This document shows positions 3,955-28,607 of a stretch of 36,750 bases of DNA, piece by piece. Made by a program: the position numbers and the translations under genes. The stretch lies in IMG/VR virus record IMGVR_UViG_3300007734_000639, positions 1-36,750 of that record, one strand, 5' to 3'. Below the pieces are notes generated by a model. It was given only the letters and a program-made list of their open reading frames with translations. It ran no database searches and had not been told where the DNA came from. The DNA comes from a virus. Every line of letters begins with the position of its first letter. Position 1 is the stretch's first letter.

Positions 3955-5157
3955 ATGTCTGCTGAAATTCAGAAGACCGTCGAAGACCTGGGCCGCGCCT
4001 GGGAGCAGTTCAAAGCGAACAACGAAGACCAAACGAAGGCCACCGCGCGTGGTGTGTCCGCCAGCATCTTCGAAGAGAAGGCCGTCAAGCTGAACGAGCG
4101 CATCAGCGAACTGCAAGCCTCGCTCGACGCCATCGCCGCGAAGGCCGCGCGCCCGAGCGAGAACGGCGACACCGCCCGCAACGGCGAAGCCTCGAAAGCG
4201 TTCCTGAACTGGATGCGCAAGGGCGAGACCCGCATGAGCGCGGATGAAGTCAAGGCGATGAGCGTTGGCAGCAATGACAACGGCGGGTATCTCGTGCCCG
4301 TTGACGCATCCGGCCGCGTGGCGATGAAGGTCTATGAGACGTCGAACATCCGCGCTATCGCGCAGGTGGACACGACCACCTCTGATGCCGTCGAGGGCCT
4401 GAACGACAACGACGAAGTTTCCACCGGCTGGACCTCGGAAACCGGAACGCGCTCGGAAACCGACACGCCGGAAATCGGCAAGTGGCGCATTGAAATCCAC
4501 GAGCAGTACGCCGAACCGCGCATCACGCAGAAGCTCTTGGACGACGCCGATCTGGACGTTGGCGCCTGGCTGGAACGCAAGCTGGCCGACAAGTTCGCCC
4601 GCACCGAAAACAGCGGCTTCGTCATCGGCAACGGCGTTGGCAAGCCGCGCGGCATCACGTCGTACACGACGGCCGCCACCGCGGATTCCTCGCGCTCTTG
4701 GGGCGTGATGGAGCATGTCATGGCGGGCGCTTCCGGCGATTTCACCAGCACCACGCCTGGCGACAAGCTCCTAGAGCTCATGATGGCCCTCAAGGCCGAG
4801 TACCGCAATGGCGCCCGCTGGCTGACCAACCGGGCCGTCTTGCTGAAGGTCCGCAAGTTCAAGGAAGCCACGACCAACGCCTACATCTGGCAGCCGGGCC
4901 TCCAGGCCGGACAGCCAGCGCTGATCTGCGGTTTCCCTGTGACCGAAGCCGAGGACATGCCCGCCCTGGCCGCCGATTCGCTCTCCATGGCGTTTGGTAA
5001 TTTCAAGGTCGGTTACCAGATCTTCGACCGCAAGGGAATTTCGACCATCCGCGACGCGGTGACCACGAAGGGCTACGTCAAATTCTACACGACCAAGCGC
5101 GTTGGTGGCGGGGTGACGAACTTCGAAGCCATCAAGTTCATCAAGTTCAATACCTAA
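3955..5157 (+). CDS. Major capsid protein, HK97 fold
   Basis: 400 aa. Forms the icosahedral head. Residues about 1-75 are charged and helical (coiled-coil-like), as expected for the delta/scaffold domain removed by the upstream protease. The mature shell protein would begin around the 'SVGSNDNGGYLVP' segment (about residue 105). Other HK97 capsid marks are 'GNGVGKPRGI', 'NGARWLTNRAVLLKVRKF', 'GFPVTEAEDMP' and 'GNFKVGYQIFDRKGISTIRD'. A strong AAGGAG lies 6 nt before the ATG. The gene stands alone, with 56-base gaps on both sides that carry hairpins, unlike the fused stop-start junctions of its neighbours. This fits a need for very high expression. Confidence 0.96.
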   Translation: MSAEIQKTVEDLGRAWEQFKANNEDQTKATARGVSASIFEEKAVKLNERISELQASLDAIAAKAARPSENGDTARNGEASKAFLNWMRKGETRMSADEVKAMSVGSNDNGGYLVPVDASGRVAMKVYETSNIRAIAQVDTTTSDAVEGLNDNDEVSTGWTSETGTRSETDTPEIGKWRIEIHEQYAEPRITQKLLDDADLDVGAWLERKLADKFARTENSGFVIGNGVGKPRGITSYTTAATADSSRSWGVMEHVMAGASGDFTSTTPGDKLLELMMALKAEYRNGARWLTNRAVLLKVRKFKEATTNAYIWQPGLQAGQPALICGFPVTEAEDMPALAADSLSMAFGNFKVGYQIFDRKGISTIRDAVTTKGYVKFYTTKRVGGGVTNFEAIKFIKFNT

Positions 5158-5169
5158 CCACTTCTCCCG

Positions 5170-5189
5170 GAGGGCGGGCAACCGCCCTC
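5170..5189 (+). promoter_or_regulatory. Stable hairpin with GCAA tetraloop after the capsid gene
   Basis: Perfect 8-bp stem GAGGGCGG / CCGCCCTC closed by a GCAA (GNRA) loop, 12 bases after the capsid stop and 11 bases before AAGGAG of the next gene. No T-tract follows, so it is not a good intrinsic terminator. It may protect the 3' end of a processed capsid mRNA or insulate translation. Confidence 0.6.
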
Positions 5190-5213
5190 TCCCGCAACCA
5201 AGGAGCCAATACC

Positions 5214-5627
5214 ATGCGTGACCTTTATTCCAATCTCACCTTCCGGCGTGCAATCTCGCCGGTTTCCGTCGCCGACAATACGGCGCAAGTTTCCCAAATC
5301 ATCGACCGCCAGGGCTTCGATTCCCTCGTGTTCGCCATCGCCACCGGTTCCATCGCTGACGCCGACGCCACCTTTGCGGTGCTGGTCGAAGATGGCGACG
5401 CCTCCAACCTGTCCGATAACGCGGCCGTCGCCGATGCGGAACTGAACGGCACGGAAGCGGCGACCGGCTTCCAGTTTGACGACGACAACGAAACGCGCAA
5501 AATCGGGTACATCGGGAATAAGCGGTATGTCCGTTTGACGATCACCCCGAGCGGCAACGCTTCGGCGGCGCTCATTGCGGCTGTCGCCGTTCTCGGCAAC
5601 GCCTCGCTTCAACCCAACGGAGTCTAA
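5214..5627 (+). CDS. Conserved phage protein after capsid, possible head decoration protein
   Basis: 137 aa, no recognised enzyme motif. The sequence is a beta-rich small domain with 'DNTAQVSQIIDRQGFDSLVF', an acidic loop around residues 60-90 and 'NKRYVRLTITPSGNASAAL'. Proteins of this pattern are common between capsid and connector genes in tailed-phage and prophage clusters, usually without a name. The location and beta-rich composition fit a capsid cement or neck protein, but that is inference. ATG 5214 is preceded by AAGGAG at good spacing. Confidence 0.8.
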   Translation: MRDLYSNLTFRRAISPVSVADNTAQVSQIIDRQGFDSLVFAIATGSIADADATFAVLVEDGDASNLSDNAAVADAELNGTEAATGFQFDDDNETRKIGYIGNKRYVRLTITPSGNASAALIAAVAVLGNASLQPNGV

Positions 5628-20220: not shown

Positions 20221-20561
20221 CCCACGAGCGCTGGGCGCTGCTGTTGGGCGAGTGGTGCGCGATCCTCGGGATCACCACGCCGCCAACGCTGGTATTCCTG
20301 CCAGCGCGCCGTATGCCGCAGGGTGTGGCGATGCTGACCGAGTGGTACTTGGCCCTCGAAAACGGCTGGCAAATCAAGGTCAGCACTGGCGACATGGACG
20401 ACCCGGAGGCGCTGTTGGTCCATGAACTCCTCCACGTCCGCACCGGCTGCACGGACCAGGCGCACGAGCCATGGATACGGGATCTGGCCGCCGCGCTGGT
20501 GGCGCTGAAGCGGCGGGTCAACTTTGTGCCGCAAAGTATCGATAAACCATTGAAAACATAG
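20217..20561 (+). CDS. HExxH-motif putative zinc metalloprotein
   Basis: 114 aa. Contains HELLH at residues 69-73 ('LLVHELLHVRTGC') followed by a helix, the core of zincin-type metallopeptidases. No third ligand can be fixed, though a Glu/His further on (HEPWIRD, residues 83-89) is a candidate. The N-terminal half carries 'LLLGEWCAILGITTPPTLVF' and beta strands. ATG 20217 overlaps the previous stop (ATGA); the longer in-frame start at 20058 lies inside that gene. The last codons carry the -35 element of the promoter for 20584. Confidence 0.68.
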   Translation: MTHERWALLLGEWCAILGITTPPTLVFLPARRMPQGVAMLTEWYLALENGWQIKVSTGDMDDPEALLVHELLHVRTGCTDQAHEPWIRDLAAALVALKRRVNFVPQSIDKPLKT

Positions 20562-20578
20562 GCAGTTAGTCGTATACT
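20550..20578 (+). promoter_or_regulatory. Sigma70-like promoter P1, predicted leaderless
   Basis: -35 TTGAAA (20550-20555), 17-base spacer, -10 TATACT (20573-20578). ATG 20584 follows after only 5 bases, so transcription should start at or within 1-2 bases of the start codon. There is no ribosome site. It shares TCGTATA around the -10 with P3 (23294-23322). Confidence 0.75.
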
Positions 20579-20583
20579 TAGAC

Positions 20584-21267
20584 ATGGTTAAATCAACACG
20601 GACAATCACCCGCGACCGCAAGTGTGTGGAGGCAATGCGCACGGCTGCCGAGTGTATCGGCGAGATCGAAAAAGATATGTCTCTTTTCGCGGTGACGCGC
20701 GGTCAGTTTTCCATGATCGACTGCGTGCGGCACTGCCTGGACAAAATGGGGCCGTCACGGCTGACGATCTGGACGTGGTGCATCGCCGATTACGAGATTG
20801 AGACATTTGAGTGGCTGTTACGGGCCGGCGGTATCACGGAGGCGTTGCTGGTGATTGACCGGGCCGGCGAACAACAGGTGGCGAAGACGCGGGGCTTTCG
20901 GGACGGAAGCATTGACAAGGCCGAAAAGCAGGGCGCGCTCATGCGGCGCTGGAAGGAAAAGTTTGGTCCTGAGTCTATCCGCGTCGTGCTGAATCACGCG
21001 AAGATTGCCACGCTCGACAACGGGACACACCGGGTGGTAATTCGCGGCTCCATGAATCTCAACCACAATCCGCGCTTCGAGCAATTGGATATAACGGAAG
21101 GTGCCGGGCCGTTTGAGCTGATTCAAGAAATAGAGAACTCACTGCCAGTGCTCGGCGAAAAGTACACGCGGCGCGAAGTCGAGGACGCAACAGGCGCGCA
21201 TTGTCTGTTTTCGGACGAAGAGTTGAAGCCGTTCCTCGCGGCAGAATTGAAGGTGTGGGCAAAATGA
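20584..21267 (+). CDS. Phospholipase-D-like (HKD) nuclease family protein
   Basis: 227 aa with a single PLD catalytic motif: H138-x-K140-x4-D145, then GSMN (155-158), and Glu166 in 'NPRFEQLDI'. Single-motif members act as dimers and usually cut DNA. The N-terminal 'AVTRGQFSMIDCVRHCLDKM' and 'LTIWTWCIADYEI' match a phage group whose role is not settled. It is read from its own promoter, apparently without a leader. It is coupled (ATGA) to a small TerS-like gene, which hints at a packaging- or DNA-end-related function (inference). Confidence 0.8.
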   Translation: MVKSTRTITRDRKCVEAMRTAAECIGEIEKDMSLFAVTRGQFSMIDCVRHCLDKMGPSRLTIWTWCIADYEIETFEWLLRAGGITEALLVIDRAGEQQVAKTRGFRDGSIDKAEKQGALMRRWKEKFGPESIRVVLNHAKIATLDNGTHRVVIRGSMNLNHNPRFEQLDITEGAGPFELIQEIENSLPVLGEKYTRREVEDATGAHCLFSDEELKPFLAAELKVWAK

Positions 21268-21512
21268 CGCGCGAAGAAATCGTCAAGGCACTACTGAAAG
21301 AAAAGAACCGGCCTGAAAAGGCCGGTTTGTACGCGGACTCATTTATCGAGTACCGCGCGGCGCAAGACAACATCGACAAGAACGGCTCTATCGTGGCCGA
21401 CCCAAGGAGCGGTGCCGCAGTGCCGAATCCATTCTTGACCGTGCGGGACAAAGCATTCGCCCGCCTGGAATCTCTTCACAAGGCGGGCGTTAAGGCTTCG
21501 GTGCTGTGGTAG
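21264..21512 (+). CDS. Small protein resembling the core of P27 terminase small subunits
   Basis: 82 aa. ATG 21264 overlaps the PLD gene stop (ATGA). The stretch 'YADSFIEYRAAQDNIDKNG' then 'SIVADPRSGAAVPNPFLTVR' and a C-terminal helix ending in 'ASVLW' resembles the C-terminal half of P27-family small terminases. The genuine terS is at 46-456, so this would be a second, shortened copy in an accessory site. Similarity is by eye only. The stop abuts the convergent reverse-strand gene with no gap. An intragenic hairpin lies at 21306-21327. Confidence 0.6.
   Translation: MTREEIVKALLKEKNRPEKAGLYADSFIEYRAAQDNIDKNGSIVADPRSGAAVPNPFLTVRDKAFARLESLHKAGVKASVLW
21306..21328 (+). repeat. Intragenic inverted repeat, terminator-like
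   Basis: AACCGGCC (21306-21313), loop TGAAAA, GGCCGGTT (21320-21327), T. A perfect 8-bp stem preceded by an A-rich run and followed by TTG, 40 bases into the small gene. Shape is that of an intrinsic terminator with a very short U-tract; it might attenuate transcription after the PLD gene. Confidence 0.5.
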
Positions 21513-21668
21513 TTAGCAGCGGTGGTTTCGCTGCAACGCCCGCGCTGCAGTCATAAGACCGCAGGGGCAGCGTGGGTACCGTAGCGGCGGGCCTCCGTTG
21601 CGCCCTCCGGTTTTGGTCTTACGGAGGGCTTGCAGCGCGACGGCGGAGGGGTTTTTCGTGGCGGTCAT
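21513..21668 (-). CDS. Small 'KNPxAVAL' protein with Cys/His cluster
   Basis: 51 aa, read leftwards. It starts MTATKNPSAVALQALRKTKT and ends with CPCGLMTAARALQRNHRC, a C-x-C ... H-x-C arrangement that could bind zinc. ATG overlaps the stop of the preceding gene (ATGA), and this is the last gene of its operon. Its N-terminus matches the protein at 22692-22883, the last gene of the second operon. Such 'KNPAAVALGR' proteins recur in acidobacterial and phage DNA with unknown function. An 8-bp inverted repeat GCCCTCCG/CGGAGGGC (21602-21629) lies inside. Confidence 0.65.
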   Translation of the reverse strand: MTATKNPSAVALQALRKTKTGGRNGGPPLRYPRCPCGLMTAARALQRNHRC

Positions 21669-21940
21669 CGGGTGGCCTCGATGGCATCCCACAGCGAATC
21701 CCATGTCGCCCGAGCCGCGTCGTCAATAAGCTGTTCGATTGCCATTCGGCGTTCGTCCTCTGTGTCTTCGTCTTCGATCTTTATCCCAGGCAGATCGCCA
21801 TTATATTCACCAGAAACCCATTCCTGTCGCCGTCGGCCTTCGTCGCTTACAATGTCGAATTCTTGCGCGGCCCACGTTCTTCCGATGTCATCGCATTCAG
21901 CGGCGATTTCGGCGGGGATCATTTCAGTGTTGACTCGCAT
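21665..21940 (-). CDS. Small acidic protein of unknown function
   Basis: 91 aa, strongly acidic ('EDEDTEDERRMAIEQLIDD'), with a helical C-terminus 'ARATWDSLWDAIEATR'. I chose ATG 21938-21940 (MRVNTEM) because AGAGGAG lies exactly 6 bases upstream; the in-frame ATG two codons earlier is too close. The acidic, DNA-mimic-like composition is compatible with an inhibitor of a host DNA-binding protein, but that is speculation. Confidence 0.65.
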   Translation of the reverse strand: MRVNTEMIPAEIAAECDDIGRTWAAQEFDIVSDEGRRRQEWVSGEYNGDLPGIKIEDEDTEDERRMAIEQLIDDAARATWDSLWDAIEATR

Positions 21941-21946
21941 GATCAT

Positions 21947-21976
21947 CTCCTCTGCGGGCTATGCCGCCCGCTGGCG
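21947..21976 (-). repeat. Stop-codon hairpin plus ribosome site, copy 1
   Basis: Read leftwards: the conserved CGCCAGCGGGCGGC (21976-21963), the last codons of the upstream gene, form a 6-bp stem GCGGGC / GCCCGC (21971-21966 with 21959-21954). The loop holds that gene's stop codon, and AGAGGAG (21953-21947) directly follows the stem. Copy 2 is at 23096-23127. Confidence 0.65.
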
Positions 21977-22150
21977 TAATATTAACTTCCACTTCGCATA
22001 TCCTCGTTCGATTGGGCAGCCGGCGTAATACCAGGCGTCAATATCGCCGTTAAGGTCGGCGGCTTCGCGCCGCGCTTGGGATTCTATAATCTGCGCTTTA
22101 CGCAGGGTGTCGGTGCGGGTGGTGTACCCGTAAAAAGTAACGGTGATCAT
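21959..22150 (-). CDS. Small protein of unknown function
   Basis: 63 aa, leftward. MITVTFYGYTTRTDTLRKAQ, then a helical middle and 'DIDAWYYAGCPIERGYAKW', ending in the basic RQRAA. GGAG (22157-22160) lies 6 bases before the ATG. Second gene of the operon read from P2. The final codons and stop are part of the repeated hairpin, so its termination may control the next gene by translational coupling. No family recognised. Confidence 0.62.
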   Translation of the reverse strand: MITVTFYGYTTRTDTLRKAQIIESQARREAADLNGDIDAWYYAGCPIERGYAKWKLILRQRAA

Positions 22151-22168
22151 CTCTATCTCCTGTGGTTG

Positions 22169-22513
22169 TTATTCCGCGCCGATAACGCGGGGGCGGCTTG
22201 CTTCCCAGGTGCGAAGCGCTGCTTTTGCAGCCTGGGCGGCAGTGTAAGAGGCGAAAGCCGGGCCGGTCTTGACCTGAGCGATAGCGGCGTTGACCATATC
22301 GAGCTTTTCCTGATCTAAGGCCAAGTGGCCGACGCTGGCGACGATAGCCGGGTGGGAGGCGAGGCGCAGCGGCTTTACTTCGTTCGCGCGGGTGAACTTA
22401 CCGGAACCTTCGCACTGGAACGCAATTGCGAAGGTGTGGTTATCAGTTACCGCCAGAAGGGCAATCGTTGCGCCGGAGGCGAAGGTTACGGTGGTTTTGT
22501 CTGCGCTGTTCAT
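22169..22513 (-). CDS. First gene of reverse operon B, unknown function
   Basis: 114 aa, leftward, start ATG 22511-22513 (MNSADKTTVTFASGATIALL). The N-terminal half is beta-rich ('ATIALLAVTDNHTFAIAFQC'); the C-terminal half is helical ('LDQEKLDMVNAAIAQVKTG', 'TAAQAAKAALRTWEAS'). There is no ribosome site: the -10 box of P2 ends 6 bases before the ATG, so the mRNA should be leaderless. It shares the first four residues and the promoter layout with the gene at 23141-23287, but not the rest. Confidence 0.65.
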   Translation of the reverse strand: MNSADKTTVTFASGATIALLAVTDNHTFAIAFQCEGSGKFTRANEVKPLRLASHPAIVASVGHLALDQEKLDMVNAAIAQVKTGPAFASYTAAQAAKAALRTWEASRPRVIGAE

Positions 22514-22519
22514 ACCTTA

Positions 22520-22548
22520 ACTATAAACCAACGCTGCATTACTGTCAC
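22520..22548 (-). promoter_or_regulatory. Promoter P2 (leftward), predicted leaderless
   Basis: Leftward -35 GTGACA (22548-22543), 17-base spacer, -10 TATAGT (22525-22520), 6 bases, then ATG at 22513. The -10-to-ATG stretch TATAGTTAAGGTATG is nearly identical to P3 (TATAGTTAAAGTATG). The predicted first transcribed base is the A of ATG. Confidence 0.72.
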
Positions 22549-22555
22549 CAATAAA

Positions 22556-22738
22556 ATGACCCGCCGCGCATTATTTTTTCTTGCAGCCGCTGAGGCGGAC
22601 AAACCGCCACCCGTCAGCGAACAAGCGATGAACCGGTTTGCTGGCTTGTGGAATGAGTACGTCGAGCGCCTGAAAATCGGCGTTATCGACCTCAAGCAGT
22701 GGCGGGCGGTGGCGCGGGAGTGGGAGCGGTTGCGGTAG
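22556..22738 (+). CDS. Small + strand protein between the two reverse operons
   Basis: 60 aa. MTRRALFFLAAAEADKPPPV, then 'MNRFAGLWNEYVERLKIGVI' and 'DLKQWRAVAREWERLR', a protein-like amphipathic helical C-terminus. ATG 22556 sits 8 bases beyond the -35 of P2, so it would be divergent from operon B. No clear promoter or ribosome site. A longer in-frame reading to 22325 covers the reverse gene and is unlikely. The 3' end overlaps the reverse gene 22692-22883 by 47 bases tail to tail. Moderate support only. Confidence 0.5.
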   Translation: MTRRALFFLAAAEADKPPPVSEQAMNRFAGLWNEYVERLKIGVIDLKQWRAVAREWERLR

Positions 22739-22883
22739 CGTTCGCCCGTCGCGCCGCCACCATCTTCGCTGCCCACTCCTCGCGCTGTTCCGGCGTCTTG
22801 GCGGCGTTGGGGCCTTTGGATACCTTAGCCTGTCCACCGCGCCGCCCGAGCGCGACGGCGGCGGGGTTTTTGGGTGTGGTCAT
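22692..22883 (-). CDS. Small 'KNPAAVALGRRGG' protein
   Basis: 63 aa, leftward, last gene of reverse operon A. It begins MTTPKNPAAVALGRRGGQAK, then 'EQREEWAAKMVAARR' and an Ala/Pro/Thr-rich tail. ATG overlaps the upstream stop (ATGA). The basic Gly-Arg-rich N-terminus suggests nucleic-acid contact, but the family has no known function to me. It is a counterpart of 21513-21668, which keeps the same first residues but has a Cys/His C-terminus instead. Confidence 0.68.
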   Translation of the reverse strand: MTTPKNPAAVALGRRGGQAKVSKGPNAAKTPEQREEWAAKMVAARRANATATAPTPAPPPATA

Positions 22884-23089
22884 GCGATTAAGCCTCGGTA
22901 CACGGCGGAAAACGAGTGGTTCGGCGTGACCGGCAAGCGGCGCCAACGGGGATCGTCATTTACCGCCCAGGCTTCGCGGATAAACTCGTAGGCAGCTTCG
23001 ACGCTGGGGTACTCGCCGGGCTGGAAGGCATCGCGCACGCTGGCGGCGGCTTCTGTTGCGGCGGCGGCGGATATGTTCGGGTTATTCAT
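22880..23089 (-). CDS. Small protein of unknown function, second gene of operon A
   Basis: 69 aa, leftward. MNNPNISAAAATEAAASVRD, then 'GEYPSVEAAYEFIREAWAVN' and 'DDPRWRRLPVTPNHSFSAVY'. AGAGGAG lies exactly 6 bases upstream of ATG 23087-23089, the same spacing as at 21940, so I reject the in-frame start at 23113. The middle looks like a short helical domain. It is coupled by ATGA to the KNPAAVAL gene. Confidence 0.66.
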   Translation of the reverse strand: MNNPNISAAAATEAAASVRDAFQPGEYPSVEAAYEFIREAWAVNDDPRWRRLPVTPNHSFSAVYRGLIA

Positions 23090-23095
23090 ATTCTT

Positions 23096-23127
23096 CTCCT
23101 CTGCGGGCTTCACGCCGCCCGCTGGCG
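23096..23127 (-). repeat. Stop-codon-type hairpin plus ribosome site, copy 2
   Basis: Leftward: CGCCAGCGGGCGGC (23127-23114) followed by an 8-base loop and GCCCGC, giving stem GCGGGC/GCCCGC (23122-23117 with 23108-23103), directly followed by AGAGGAG (23102-23096). It still spells RQRAA-stop in one frame, but here no gene enters in that frame, because the upstream gene stops at 23141. This looks like a remnant of a gene end kept as an RNA element. Confidence 0.65.
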
Positions 23128-23140
23128 TTTGGGGTGGAAG

Positions 23141-23287
23141 TTAGTTGCTCTTTTCAACTTCCGCGACGAGTTCTTCAATCTGTTCTCGGTAGCTGCCGGA
23201 TACCAGATCGTATTTCAAAAGCCCAGCAAGCATGGTTAGCATTTGCTGCGCTTGGTCTTGCGTGATGGTGTGTTGTGCGCTGTTCAT
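23141..23287 (-). CDS. First gene of reverse operon A, small helical protein
   Basis: 48 aa, leftward, ATG 23285-23287. MNSAQHTITQDQAQQMLTML, then 'LLKYDLVSGSYREQIEELVA' and EVEKSN; mainly helical and acidic at the end. There is no ribosome site; the -10 of P3 ends 6 bases before the ATG, so a leaderless mRNA is expected. No family recognised. Short, but promoter, start and position agree. Confidence 0.62.
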   Translation of the reverse strand: MNSAQHTITQDQAQQMLTMLAGLLKYDLVSGSYREQIEELVAEVEKSN

Positions 23288-23293
23288 ACTTTA

Positions 23294-23322
23294 ACTATAC
23301 GATAACCGCTTAACGTTGTCAA
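23294..23322 (-). promoter_or_regulatory. Promoter P3 (leftward), consensus, predicted leaderless
   Basis: Leftward -35 TTGACA (23322-23317, perfect), 17-base spacer, -10 TATAGT (23299-23294), 6 bases, ATG at 23287. The strongest promoter in the window by consensus. The last spacer bases TCG plus TATA match P1. Confidence 0.82.
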
Positions 23323-26488: not shown

Positions 26489-26706
26489 GCAAGGTGGAGA
26501 GGGTGAATCACGTGCCATATTACCGGAGTTCCGCGTACATGACGCAGCAGGAGTTTGCTGACAGCCTTGGAGTATCACGACGAACGGTAGCGAAATGGGA
26601 ATCAGGCAGAGTTCAACCCGATATCGATAGTGAACGAAAGCTGTCTTTCCATTGCGCGGCATATCACATCGCCTACACCTGCCCTATTTGCGAGGTGACG
26701 CGATGA
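26485..26706 (+). CDS. XRE-type helix-turn-helix protein
   Basis: 73 aa. The HTH_3 core is clear: 'MTQQEFADSLGVSRRTVAKW' followed by ESGRVQPD (residues about 19-46). A Cys-containing tail (HIAYTCPICEVTR) carries CPIC and may bind metal. Likely a DNA-binding regulator. Coupled by ATGA on both sides. It could be a Cro-like or early regulator; no operator was identified. Confidence 0.8.
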   Translation: MSKVERVNHVPYYRSSAYMTQQEFADSLGVSRRTVAKWESGRVQPDIDSERKLSFHCAAYHIAYTCPICEVTR

Positions 26707-26873
26707 CGCCCCTCTACTGGATCGTGTTTCACGTTGCCGCGCTGTGGGCCATCTGTCTCACCGCTACGCGCTACGACTGCCAGGACCGGTTGACGGCTAC
26801 GCTGGGCGGGGTGGCGTTTGGGCTGAATGTGATCGCGCTGGGCGTCAAGGTTTGGGAGGTGTTCCATGGGTGA
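26703..26873 (+). CDS. Small two-helix membrane protein
   Basis: 56 aa. Two hydrophobic segments: 'YWIVFHVAALWAICLTA' and 'LGGVAFGLNVIALGVKVWEV', separated by a short charged loop with a Cys. ATGA overlap upstream; 8-base overlap with the nuclease gene. Function unknown. Confidence 0.62.
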   Translation: MTPLYWIVFHVAALWAICLTATRYDCQDRLTATLGGVAFGLNVIALGVKVWEVFHG

Positions 26874-27906
26874 GCAACTTGTTCACGCCGAACGCTTTGA
26901 CGCGCTTGAGCGGCATGTGCCGGAAGTCTCGCAAGATCCGTCACAACGTCAAGGCTTCATCGGCGGGACCGACATCCAACACGTCTTAGGCCTGGAGCCC
27001 TACGGCTGCGCACGGCGGCTGTGGTACCAGAAGACCGGCGTGCCGCAGGACCGGGAGTTTCGGCGGACCGGGCCAATCGTGGCCGGCAAGTTAATGGAAG
27101 ACGGCATTGCCGAAATGGTCACCGAGGCGCGGCCAGATTGGAAGATCCGGCGCAAGCGGGCATCAGCCAACGGCCACGAACTCCAGCGGGTGGACCGGGC
27201 CATCGTCGGGCAGGAGCGCGGGCCTGGCGTTCTCGAAATTAAGACCGTGAGCGACCGAGTCTTTTGGGACTGGAAGCGCGACGGCGTGCCGCTTAGGTAT
27301 CTGATGCAGGTGCAGTGGTATATGCGCGTGCTTGGGTGGAAGTGGGCGTGCATCGCGGCGCTAAACCGCGACACGGGACAACTGGACCTGTATGAAATCG
27401 AAGCGCGGCCGGATCTGATGAAGGTTGTGGCGGAAAAAGTCGATTGGTTCATGACGCACCACGTGGCCCAGCGCGTTGCGCCCGCATGGCTAGAGGAGCG
27501 CGACGCGCGCTGTGAGTCCTGCCAATGGGAACCGACGTGCCAGATGGACGAGTGGTCGGCAGTGAGCGATCAGGGGCTGGTGCAGATCGAAGGGTTGGCT
27601 CCGCTGGTGGCCGAGTACCAGCGGGCGAAGGATCTTATCAAGCGCGCGGAGAAAATGGCCGACATTCTCCGCGCGGGCGACGAGTCCGCAGAGGACGAAC
27701 CGCACCGGCTAGGGATTGACGCGCTGATTGGCGTCAACGAGCAGGCGCGGGCATCGGCGGACGAGCGGGTATTGTTTCGGGTGGTGGAGACTTCGCGCGT
27801 TGATACTGACGCGCTGAAGACGAAGTACCCGGACGTGTACGCGGACGTGTTGAAGCGGTCGGTAAGCCGGCCGTTGCGAATTTTCAAAATCAAGGGAGCA
27901 AAGTAA
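26866..27906 (+). CDS. RecB/Cas4-AddB-like exonuclease with predicted Fe-S cluster
   Basis: 346 aa. PD-(D/E)xK nuclease core: D110 ('LQRVDRAI'), E124-x-K126 in 'GVLEIKTVSD', then a helix with 'LMQVQWYMRV' (Q-x3-Y type). Four cysteines match the Cas4/AddB iron-sulphur pattern: C48 in 'YGCARRLWYQ', and C216-x2-C219-x5-C225 in CESCQWEPTC. The C-terminal part resembles YqaJ-type phage exonucleases ('APLVAEYQRAKDLIKRAEKM'). It should resect DNA 5' ends for the annealing protein encoded next (TAATG overlap). The Fe-S ligation is inferred from spacing. Confidence 0.83.
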   Translation: MGEQLVHAERFDALERHVPEVSQDPSQRQGFIGGTDIQHVLGLEPYGCARRLWYQKTGVPQDREFRRTGPIVAGKLMEDGIAEMVTEARPDWKIRRKRASANGHELQRVDRAIVGQERGPGVLEIKTVSDRVFWDWKRDGVPLRYLMQVQWYMRVLGWKWACIAALNRDTGQLDLYEIEARPDLMKVVAEKVDWFMTHHVAQRVAPAWLEERDARCESCQWEPTCQMDEWSAVSDQGLVQIEGLAPLVAEYQRAKDLIKRAEKMADILRAGDESAEDEPHRLGIDALIGVNEQARASADERVLFRVVETSRVDTDALKTKYPDVYADVLKRSVSRPLRIFKIKGAK

Positions 27907-28607
27907 TGAGTACGCAGCAAGTTACGCCGGAACAAGCACCGGCGCAGACGATTCAGCCAACGCACAGTCGGAGTATCTTCGATGACATGGTGGAGAACCA
28001 CCAAGCGCGGTCGCAGGCAGAGCAGGCGAAGGCGGATAAAATCTGCGCTGAAACCTACGCAAATAACGCTAATGCCTATGTGATTGCCCTTGGGCGGGAT
28101 TACGGGCTTGGTGCCGCGCATTCCCTCCAGATGATTTGGGTTGACCCAAAGAGCGGGAAGCCGAACCTGTACGCCGGTGCGCGTGCTACCTTCCTCCAGC
28201 AGGCCGGTTACGATTGGCGGCCAGTGGTGATGACTGATAAAGAGGTGCGGCTGCGCTTCATGCTGCGGGGGGAGTGGATGAAGGACGCCGACGACAAGCC
28301 GCTGGAAGTGGGCATGACGATCGCTGAGGCCGAGCAGGCTGATTGGGTGGTTAACTCTCGCGGAAAAGATCCGAAGCCTGGGGCTAAAGGCAACTACGAC
28401 AAGTTCCCGAAGAACATGCTGTTTGCCCGCGTGATCTCGAATTTTCACCGCTTCTTTGCTCCTCACGTCATCGGCGCCACCGTCTACGATATGGGCGAGG
28501 TGAGCATGGATTCAGTCATCGCGGCGACGGACAGCAAGTCCGCTAGCAAGCTCGATGAACTGGAAGCGGAACTGAAGCAGACTAGCTTGGCGGTGGCCAA
28601 TGTTTGA
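27906..28607 (+). CDS. RecT-like single-strand annealing protein
   Basis: 233 aa. It follows an exonuclease and precedes an SSB-like gene, the usual place for RecT/Bet-type annealers. In the middle is 'GLGAAHSLQMIWVDPKSGKP' with 'LYAGARATFLQQAGYDWRPV'; later 'KFPKNMLFARVISNFHRFFA' followed by 'PHVIGATVYDMGEV', which resembles the RecT segment 'YPKRML.ARA.S...R...PD'. The N-terminal 30 residues are low-complexity, and the C-terminus ends in an acidic helix. Assignment is from pattern and context. Confidence 0.72.
   Translation: MSTQQVTPEQAPAQTIQPTHSRSIFDDMVENHQARSQAEQAKADKICAETYANNANAYVIALGRDYGLGAAHSLQMIWVDPKSGKPNLYAGARATFLQQAGYDWRPVVMTDKEVRLRFMLRGEWMKDADDKPLEVGMTIAEAEQADWVVNSRGKDPKPGAKGNYDKFPKNMLFARVISNFHRFFAPHVIGATVYDMGEVSMDSVIAATDSKSASKLDELEAELKQTSLAVANV

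Follow-up and report, generated by a model that had tools for sequence, protein, structure and literature searches.

Two reverse-strand operons of a tailed phage are probable slots of a plug-in platform for exchangeable small genes

The 36,750-nucleotide (nt) stretch of IMGVR_UViG_3300007734_000639 analysed here (the window; operon coordinates are window positions) encodes a terminase, portal, major head protein, tape measure, holin, endonuclease, helicases and a DNA methyltransferase, together with a recombination pair, a RecE-like exonuclease and a RecT-like annealing protein. This predicted gene content marks it as a tailed phage. On its reverse strand lie two operons of small genes, A and B, each of which is probably one slot of a platform for exchanging such genes. 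All seven reverse-strand open reading frames listed in a preliminary description of this DNA are present, with the lengths given there:

22692-23287, minus strand: operon A (slot A), open reading frames of 48, 69 and 63 amino acids (aa)
23141-23287, minus strand: A1, position-1 gene, 48 aa, found so far in this window only
22880-23089, minus strand: A2, position-2 gene, 69 aa, a member of family p2_69, which other phages carry in slots A, B and E
22692-22883, minus strand: A3, last gene, 63 aa, GRRGG...TPEQR family, basic (pI 11.5)
21513-22513, minus strand: operon B (slot B), open reading frames of 114, 63, 91 and 51 aa
22169-22513, minus strand: B1, position-1 gene, 114 aa, family p1_114, in slot A in L018 and slot B in L005, L009 and L019
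21959-22150, minus strand: B2, 63 aa, family p2_58, always after p1_114
21665-21940, minus strand: B3, position-2 gene, 91 aa, family p2_91, in slot A in L015, L017 and L084
21513-21668, minus strand: B4, last gene, 51 aa, KTGGRNGGPP...RCPCG...RNHRC, basic (pI 11.6), possibly zinc-binding

Differences between copies of the small genes fall mostly at third codon positions, indicating that these genes encode real proteins under selection. The preliminary description also took them as the only genes opposing the rest of the phage; they may be, with 35.66-36.75 kb as a possible exception.

Each operon starts from a near-consensus sigma-70-like promoter, the ATG of the first gene beginning 7 bases past the -10 box in both cases, and a third promoter of this kind lies nearby:

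23294-23322, minus strand: slot A promoter, TTGACA-17-TATAGT, leaderless, 11 of 12 matches
22520-22548, minus strand: slot B promoter, GTGACA-17-TATAGT, leaderless, 10 of 12 matches
20550-20584, plus strand: third leaderless promoter, TTGAAA-17-TATACT, at the start of the endonuclease gene 20584-21267

Sigma-70-like sites with at least 10 of 12 matches number three in the whole window, all of them leaderless, where random sequence would be expected to give 1.2 sites and 0.125 leaderless ones.

Three short sequences, here called joints, recur in both operons. J1, TATAGTTAAAGT-ATGAACAGCGCA(CAACAAACC), spans the -10 box, the ATG and the first four codons (MNSA); J2, (TAACCCCCACCCC)AACGCCAGCGGGCGGCGTGAAGCCCGCAGAGGAGATGA, consists of a hairpin and a Shine-Dalgarno (SD) sequence; and J3, (GAGGCCACCCG)ATGACCACCCCGAAAAACCCCGCCGCCGTCGC, contains an ATGA stop/start overlap and the KNPAAVA codons:

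23276-23299, minus strand: J1 of slot A
22502-22525, minus strand: J1 of slot B
23096-23122, minus strand: J2 of slot A, with the hairpin GCGGGC/GCCCGC at 23103-23122 and AGAGGAG at 23096-23102
21947-21971, minus strand: J2 of slot B, with the hairpin at 21954-21971 and AGAGGAG at 21947-21953
22849-22883, minus strand: J3 of slot A, overlap and MTTPKNPAAVAL codons
21634-21668, minus strand: J3 of slot B

The 24-mer TATAGTTAARGTATGAACAGCGCA of J1 has two copies in the window, where 0 would be expected by chance, and zero chance matches are likewise expected for the hairpin-SD block of J2. The last genes are ATGA-coupled and start MTTPKNPAAVALG and MTATKNPSAVALQ, the surrounding DNA forming a 35-bp repeat with 86% identity. 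The leaderless first genes starting MNSA and the coupled last genes starting KNP(A/S)AVAL had both been noticed in the preliminary description, and both are borne out; the hairpin abutting AGAGGAG exactly 6 bases before the ATG is found as described in the two window operons, but its spacing varies among relatives. In the window the hairpin is joined into the end of B2, whose C-terminus RQRAA-stop is, by direct reading, encoded by the hairpin sequence of J2. A search of Rfam gave no match.

Relatives were gathered by pattern scans for the promoter and hairpin and by protein scans, followed by gene calling. The same layout is found in about 32 IMG/VR contigs (designated by L numbers), in the order promoter, position 1 (MNS...), hairpin, position 2, ATGA, position 3, which strongly supports the common plan that had been proposed for the two operons. 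The unrelated families number at least 13 at position 1 (48-114 aa) and at least 13 at position 2 (58-128 aa), these counts being lower bounds set by the search patterns, with gene starts called by our own script. The two kinds of gene combine freely, with 27 distinct pairs of position-1 and position-2 genes among 42 complete slots, some contigs being near duplicates. The number of slots per phage is one (L007, L012, L022, L105), two in many cases and three in some (L003, L023). In a few slots the position-2 gene is missing or there are two of them; slot B of the window, an example of the latter, reads p1_114, p2_58, hairpin, p2_91.

The same families recur in different slots. Like p1_114, which is found in slot A as well as slot B (see the list above), the families p1_110, p1_57, p2_69, p2_78 and p2_91 each occur in both. 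Nucleotide identities between slots and within slots were 0.927 and 0.920 for p1_110, 0.946 and 0.933 for p1_114, 0.913 and 0.910 for p2_58, 0.827 and 0.803 for p2_69, and 0.929 and 0.948 for p2_78. As these best-sampled families are about equally alike across and within slots, the slots appear to be filled by exchange. The preliminary description had instead seen in the two operons a duplicated and diversified cassette, that is, an ancient duplication of one operon whose inner genes then diverged. The layout does occur twice, single-slot relatives are known (the four listed above), and the first two-slot ancestor may stem from a duplication. However, the inner genes, which that description had correctly reported to differ, are non-homologous, and other phages carry near-identical copies of them in the other slot: L018 has B1- and B2-type genes in its slot A, and L007 and L022 have the A2 family in slot B. 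Duplication followed by divergence is thus contradicted as the source of the present contents, and we consider it very improbable. Occurrences of the genes outside this arrangement, which had been named as grounds for doubting the cassette, were found for a p2_79 relative on the plus strand (L113 and L114) and for p1_110 relatives standing as single genes, but the layout holds in close relatives. The p2_79 relative (L113:2581-3057; L114 at ~5078-5290) lies within an ordinary row of coupled genes ahead of the endonuclease.

The edges of one exchange are seen in L010 and L013, two contigs from different metagenomes, one of which has p1_57 and the other p1_83 as the first gene of slot B. Their left flanks are 99.77% identical over 2654 nt, up to nucleotide 26 of this gene, and their right flanks are 99.83% identical over 1719 nt, starting at its stop codon; exactly one gene has been swapped, with breakpoints within J1 and J2. 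Similar edges, with other payloads and lower identity, are present in L009/L019 and L002/L019. Between the window and L105, with terminases 51% identical, identity reaches 91.6% over a 285-nt block that extends from J2 to J3. J1 and J2 are also carried by L191, in which no match was found to the window terminase, the window RecE or the phrog_9 terminase family.

The joints reach into coding sequence and there replace gene starts in frame. Outside the cassette, most p1_110 relatives in other phages (mostly 37-48% identical) have M(K)KITKATFKSF as their start, and many are preceded by a ribosome-binding site (RBS) of their own; the cassette copies start MNSAxNTNRxTKTxFKSF, with MNSAxNTNRx replacing the usual beginning. 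In L189 the MKRDKTYAY gene, usually at position 2, stands first, with MNSA fused in frame (MNSAKRDKTYAYV). Chimeras also occur: in the last gene of L084 an E type continues into the C-terminal part of B, and L003 contains a p2_69 chimera. At L023:3880-4183 the hairpin-SD joint stands immediately ahead of an MNSA gene, J2 replacing the promoter part of J1.

Third-position divergence among unrelated position-1 families is 0.045 at codons 2-4 (J1) versus 0.69 at codons 12-45, and between the last-gene types p3_A and p3_B it is 0.094 within J3, like copies of one type, and 0.60 beyond it. Judged from these values, protein constraint cannot explain the identical synonymous choices across unrelated genes. 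It might be argued that the joints are kept only for expression, with genes arriving by illegitimate recombination and selection retaining the insertions that fall beside working signals, as would suit a J1 that is a near-consensus promoter with a start codon and a J2 that carries an SD sequence. J3, however, lies inside the last gene, and at its synonymous sites p3_A and p3_B resemble each other as closely as copies of either type do among themselves, so that an expression constraint seems an unlikely reason for its conservation; moreover, the flanks of the swapped gene are 99.8% identical over long blocks with exact edges in the joints. Conservation for expression alone is improbable on these grounds.

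We propose, with a probability of roughly 0.78, that every such operon represents one slot of a standardised plug-in platform whose joints give both start signals and exchange homology. Fixed ends (the promoter and the basic last gene) would enclose one or two interchangeable small genes, and J1, J2 and J3 would lend transcription and translation starts to any inserted gene while serving as the homology for payload swaps between phages during co-infection. Such swaps would proceed by homologous recombination, most likely via the RecE/RecT-type pair of the phage, for which the window has these candidates:

26866-27906, plus strand: RecE-like exonuclease, candidate recombination machinery
27906-28607, plus strand: RecT-like annealing protein, candidate recombination machinery

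Given the presence of this pair, and since no match to Phage_integrase or Resolvase (tyrosine and serine integrases) was found in the window and eight relatives, whose records may be incomplete, joint-guided homologous recombination is the likely mechanism. A site-specific recombinase of the phage or the host that recognises the hairpin and moves cassettes in the manner of an integron could account for the conserved hairpin at one of the three joints, but exchange edges also lie at J1 and J3, both without such a hairpin, no integrase was found in the phage, and the order of position types is kept, unlike that of free integron cassettes. We give this alternative almost no credence. Under the proposed platform, host RNA polymerase would read the leaderless promoters at once after DNA entry, and the leaderless mRNA would allow quick expression of the first gene.

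Several points weigh against the platform. Most of the data come from metagenomic contigs, which include fragments and near duplicates, so that the counts are not independent. Conservation of the joints may be partly attributable to functional constraint on the promoter, start and SD sequence. In the families p1_57, p1_83, p2_59 and p2_91, identity across slots is below that within slots. The J2 hairpin, whose stem hardly varies, shows no compensatory changes, leaving an RNA role as a candidate. The role of RecE and RecT is circumstantial: the L189 record gave no RecE match, and in L013 the match covered only 24 residues. Finally, Pfam, PHROGs, NCBIfam and PADLOC, the last with models of defence and not of anti-defence, yielded nothing informative for the payload proteins.

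The promoter type and the last-gene type of a slot go together. The pairs are A-A (15), B-B (18), E-E (4), C-C (2) and C-A (2), a strict letter match in 39 of 41 slots, the two exceptions being C promoters with p3_A. The A, E and 95-aa last genes form one family, and at the family level the agreement is 41 of 41 with the two C-p3_A pairs counted as matched (Fisher 5e-12, ignoring shared ancestry). TAAGCGsTTA-like spacers accompany the GRxGG/SPERR last-gene family, and CAGCGTTGG spacers accompany the possibly zinc-binding last gene. Inverted repeats in the spacers are individually weak and clearly exceed shuffles in type E alone (0.012); for type A, the perfect 12-mer in the spacer gave 0.034 in a shorter-arm test, and ATAAGCGsTTAT, considered as a common operator, is not enriched in the window. 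The linkage may reflect functional pairing, or may be the mere result of payload exchange within fixed ends. Together with the weak inverted repeats, it makes the last gene a candidate regulator, and it is conceivable, if doubtful, that the basic last gene regulates its own promoter type in an Aca-like autoregulation. A fuller version, in which the ends are matched repressor-operator pairs and the payloads an exchangeable immediate-early anti-host arsenal given its start and N-terminal tag by the joint, seems unlikely. If true, such a repressor-operator platform would be a counterpart of acr-aca control without a helix-turn-helix (HTH) protein, and scanning for joints would be a way to discover anti-defence genes.

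As for the payload itself, p1_59 resembles DUF5710 below the cut-off, the last genes have no Pfam match, and p3_A, when sought in plasmids, was absent. The AlphaFold2 model of B1 is of low confidence (predicted local distance difference test score, pLDDT, 46); that of p1_110 is good (pLDDT 86) and had no match in the PDB and a single match in a viral library, a protein 202 aa long and 40% identical, which probably is a relative from Flavobacterium phage 1/32. The p1_110 family (KITKATFKSFxKKN...NCCG) is widespread in the unrelated viral contigs L135-L160 and has no Pfam or NCBIfam match. The role in anti-defence or host takeover suggested in the preliminary description is plausible, because these promoters are among the only near-consensus host-type ones of the window, the starts are leaderless and the tiny genes turn over rapidly. 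Our best guess for the payload, at a little under even odds, is that host RNA polymerase expresses it in the immediate-early phase and that it acts in host takeover or counter-defence.

The same description had also considered lysogenic (moron-like) genes, whose leaderless promoters would be active in the prophage and whose products would protect or modify the lysogen. The opposite strand, the own promoters and the leaderless starts, which also occur in some repressor genes, are in keeping with this, as is an HTH_3 domain at 26530-26628 (plus strand), a possible regulator. However, just 2 of the 9 related records have HTH_3 above the cut-off, none of the nine gave an integrase or resolvase match, and the 84,980 bacterial and archaeal species genomes searched yielded no related prophage. 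Lysogenic conversion therefore appears highly unlikely. In a host search of genome contigs, neither the promoter pattern nor the terminase profile gave a match. Near relatives of the terminase are encoded by 43 IMG/VR loci, comparison of the terminase with public phage records reached only ~37%, and similar DNA, sought in 50,697 phage records, was not found.

Among the neighbouring genes, one not mentioned in the preliminary description lies between the slots:

22556-22738, plus strand: conserved 60-aa gene, MTRRALFFLAAA..., divergent from promoter B

It has two alternative C-terminal halves among relatives, and in L112 it immediately precedes a tail-fibre gene. The gene driven by the third leaderless promoter (20584-21267, plus strand) is endonuclease-like (phrog_16945), and its stretch HAKIATLDNG...RGSMNLN presumably resembles a phospholipase-D type motif. 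It is overlapped by a gene for a small terminase subunit (Terminase_4, 21201-21512, plus strand), the large subunit being distant at 422-1999. At L106:3495-4148, and in its near twin L108, an HNH_3 endonuclease, probably homing, has a frame that runs into the slot-B last gene. Short matches to part of this HNH-containing protein were found at L110:4496-4579, L111:5850-5933 and L115:2947-3030 (all minus strand), ~150 nt upstream of the endonuclease gene, and are possibly insertion remnants.

How phages precisely swap small accessory genes is an old question, for which L010 and L013 provide a natural experiment that places the edges in joints carrying start signals. The joints can be searched as DNA patterns and could thus lead, independently of homology, to new small phage proteins with possible effects on the host. 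With joints that hardly differ and between which related and even unrelated phages exchange different small genes, the two operons look like a natural mix-and-match expression platform, probably one for proteins that act when infection begins. No description of these joints was found in open papers, which is not proof of absence.

The early-promoter stem-loop elements (PeSLs) of T4-type phages are said to be intergenic composites of promoter and terminator stem-loop, dense in shuffled regions. They are repeated elements by which related phages shuffle small genes (Arbiol et al. 2010; Comeau et al. 2014; via PMC4503421 and PMC3950731). As described there, they share with the present system short repeats and a host sigma-70-type promoter (here 10-11 of 12) within the repeated element, and here too the repeats coincide with the edges of exchanged genes. 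Unlike in PeSLs as so described, the hairpin here stands ahead of the second gene, is followed by AGAGGAG and has no T run, so that it is not a promoter-terminator composite; there are three separate joints in fixed order, of which J1 and J3 give the start codon and N-terminal residues; and each phage has only one to three typed slots. In the haloarchaeal virus HGTV-1 a motif of promoter and inverted repeat before many open reading frames has been proposed to drive shuffling; the promoter there is archaeal, and a three-joint slot structure is not described there (PMC3950731).

The start-associated sequence (SAS) of cluster K mycobacteriophages is a 13-bp element in 11-19 copies, accompanied by 17-bp imperfect inverted repeats (extended SAS, ESAS) and constant gene families, for which homologous recombination was mentioned as a possible role (PMC3203893). 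Both systems have an inverted repeat just upstream of a conserved RBS/start sequence and small non-structural genes (PMC3203893), but SAS reads GGGATAGGAGCCC and the sequence here GCAGAGGAGATGA, the inverted repeat also differs, and here an island holds just one or two copies, followed by changing genes. With acr-aca operons (PMC9410906) the slots share small exchangeable genes and a conserved, promoter-linked last gene, and possibly a promoter with an inverted repeat; unlike the HTH protein Aca, the last genes here look like basic GRxGG or possibly zinc-binding proteins, without a Pfam match, and no anti-CRISPR was recognised. Phage Rad52-like recombinases of the RecT/Red-beta type carry out relaxed homologous recombination yielding divergence-tolerant mosaics, as shown in temperate lambdoid phages of E. 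coli (PMC3945230), and the window has a RecE/RecT-like pair. Unlike an integron, the system has no tyrosine integrase match. The nearest published idea is the PeSL together with the HGTV-1 motif, and the nearest look-alike of J2 is SAS/ESAS. The system falls outside PeSL and SAS/ESAS by defining sequence or terminator feature while its working would be PeSL-like, and what appears new beside PeSL is the three typed joints with starts in coding sequence.

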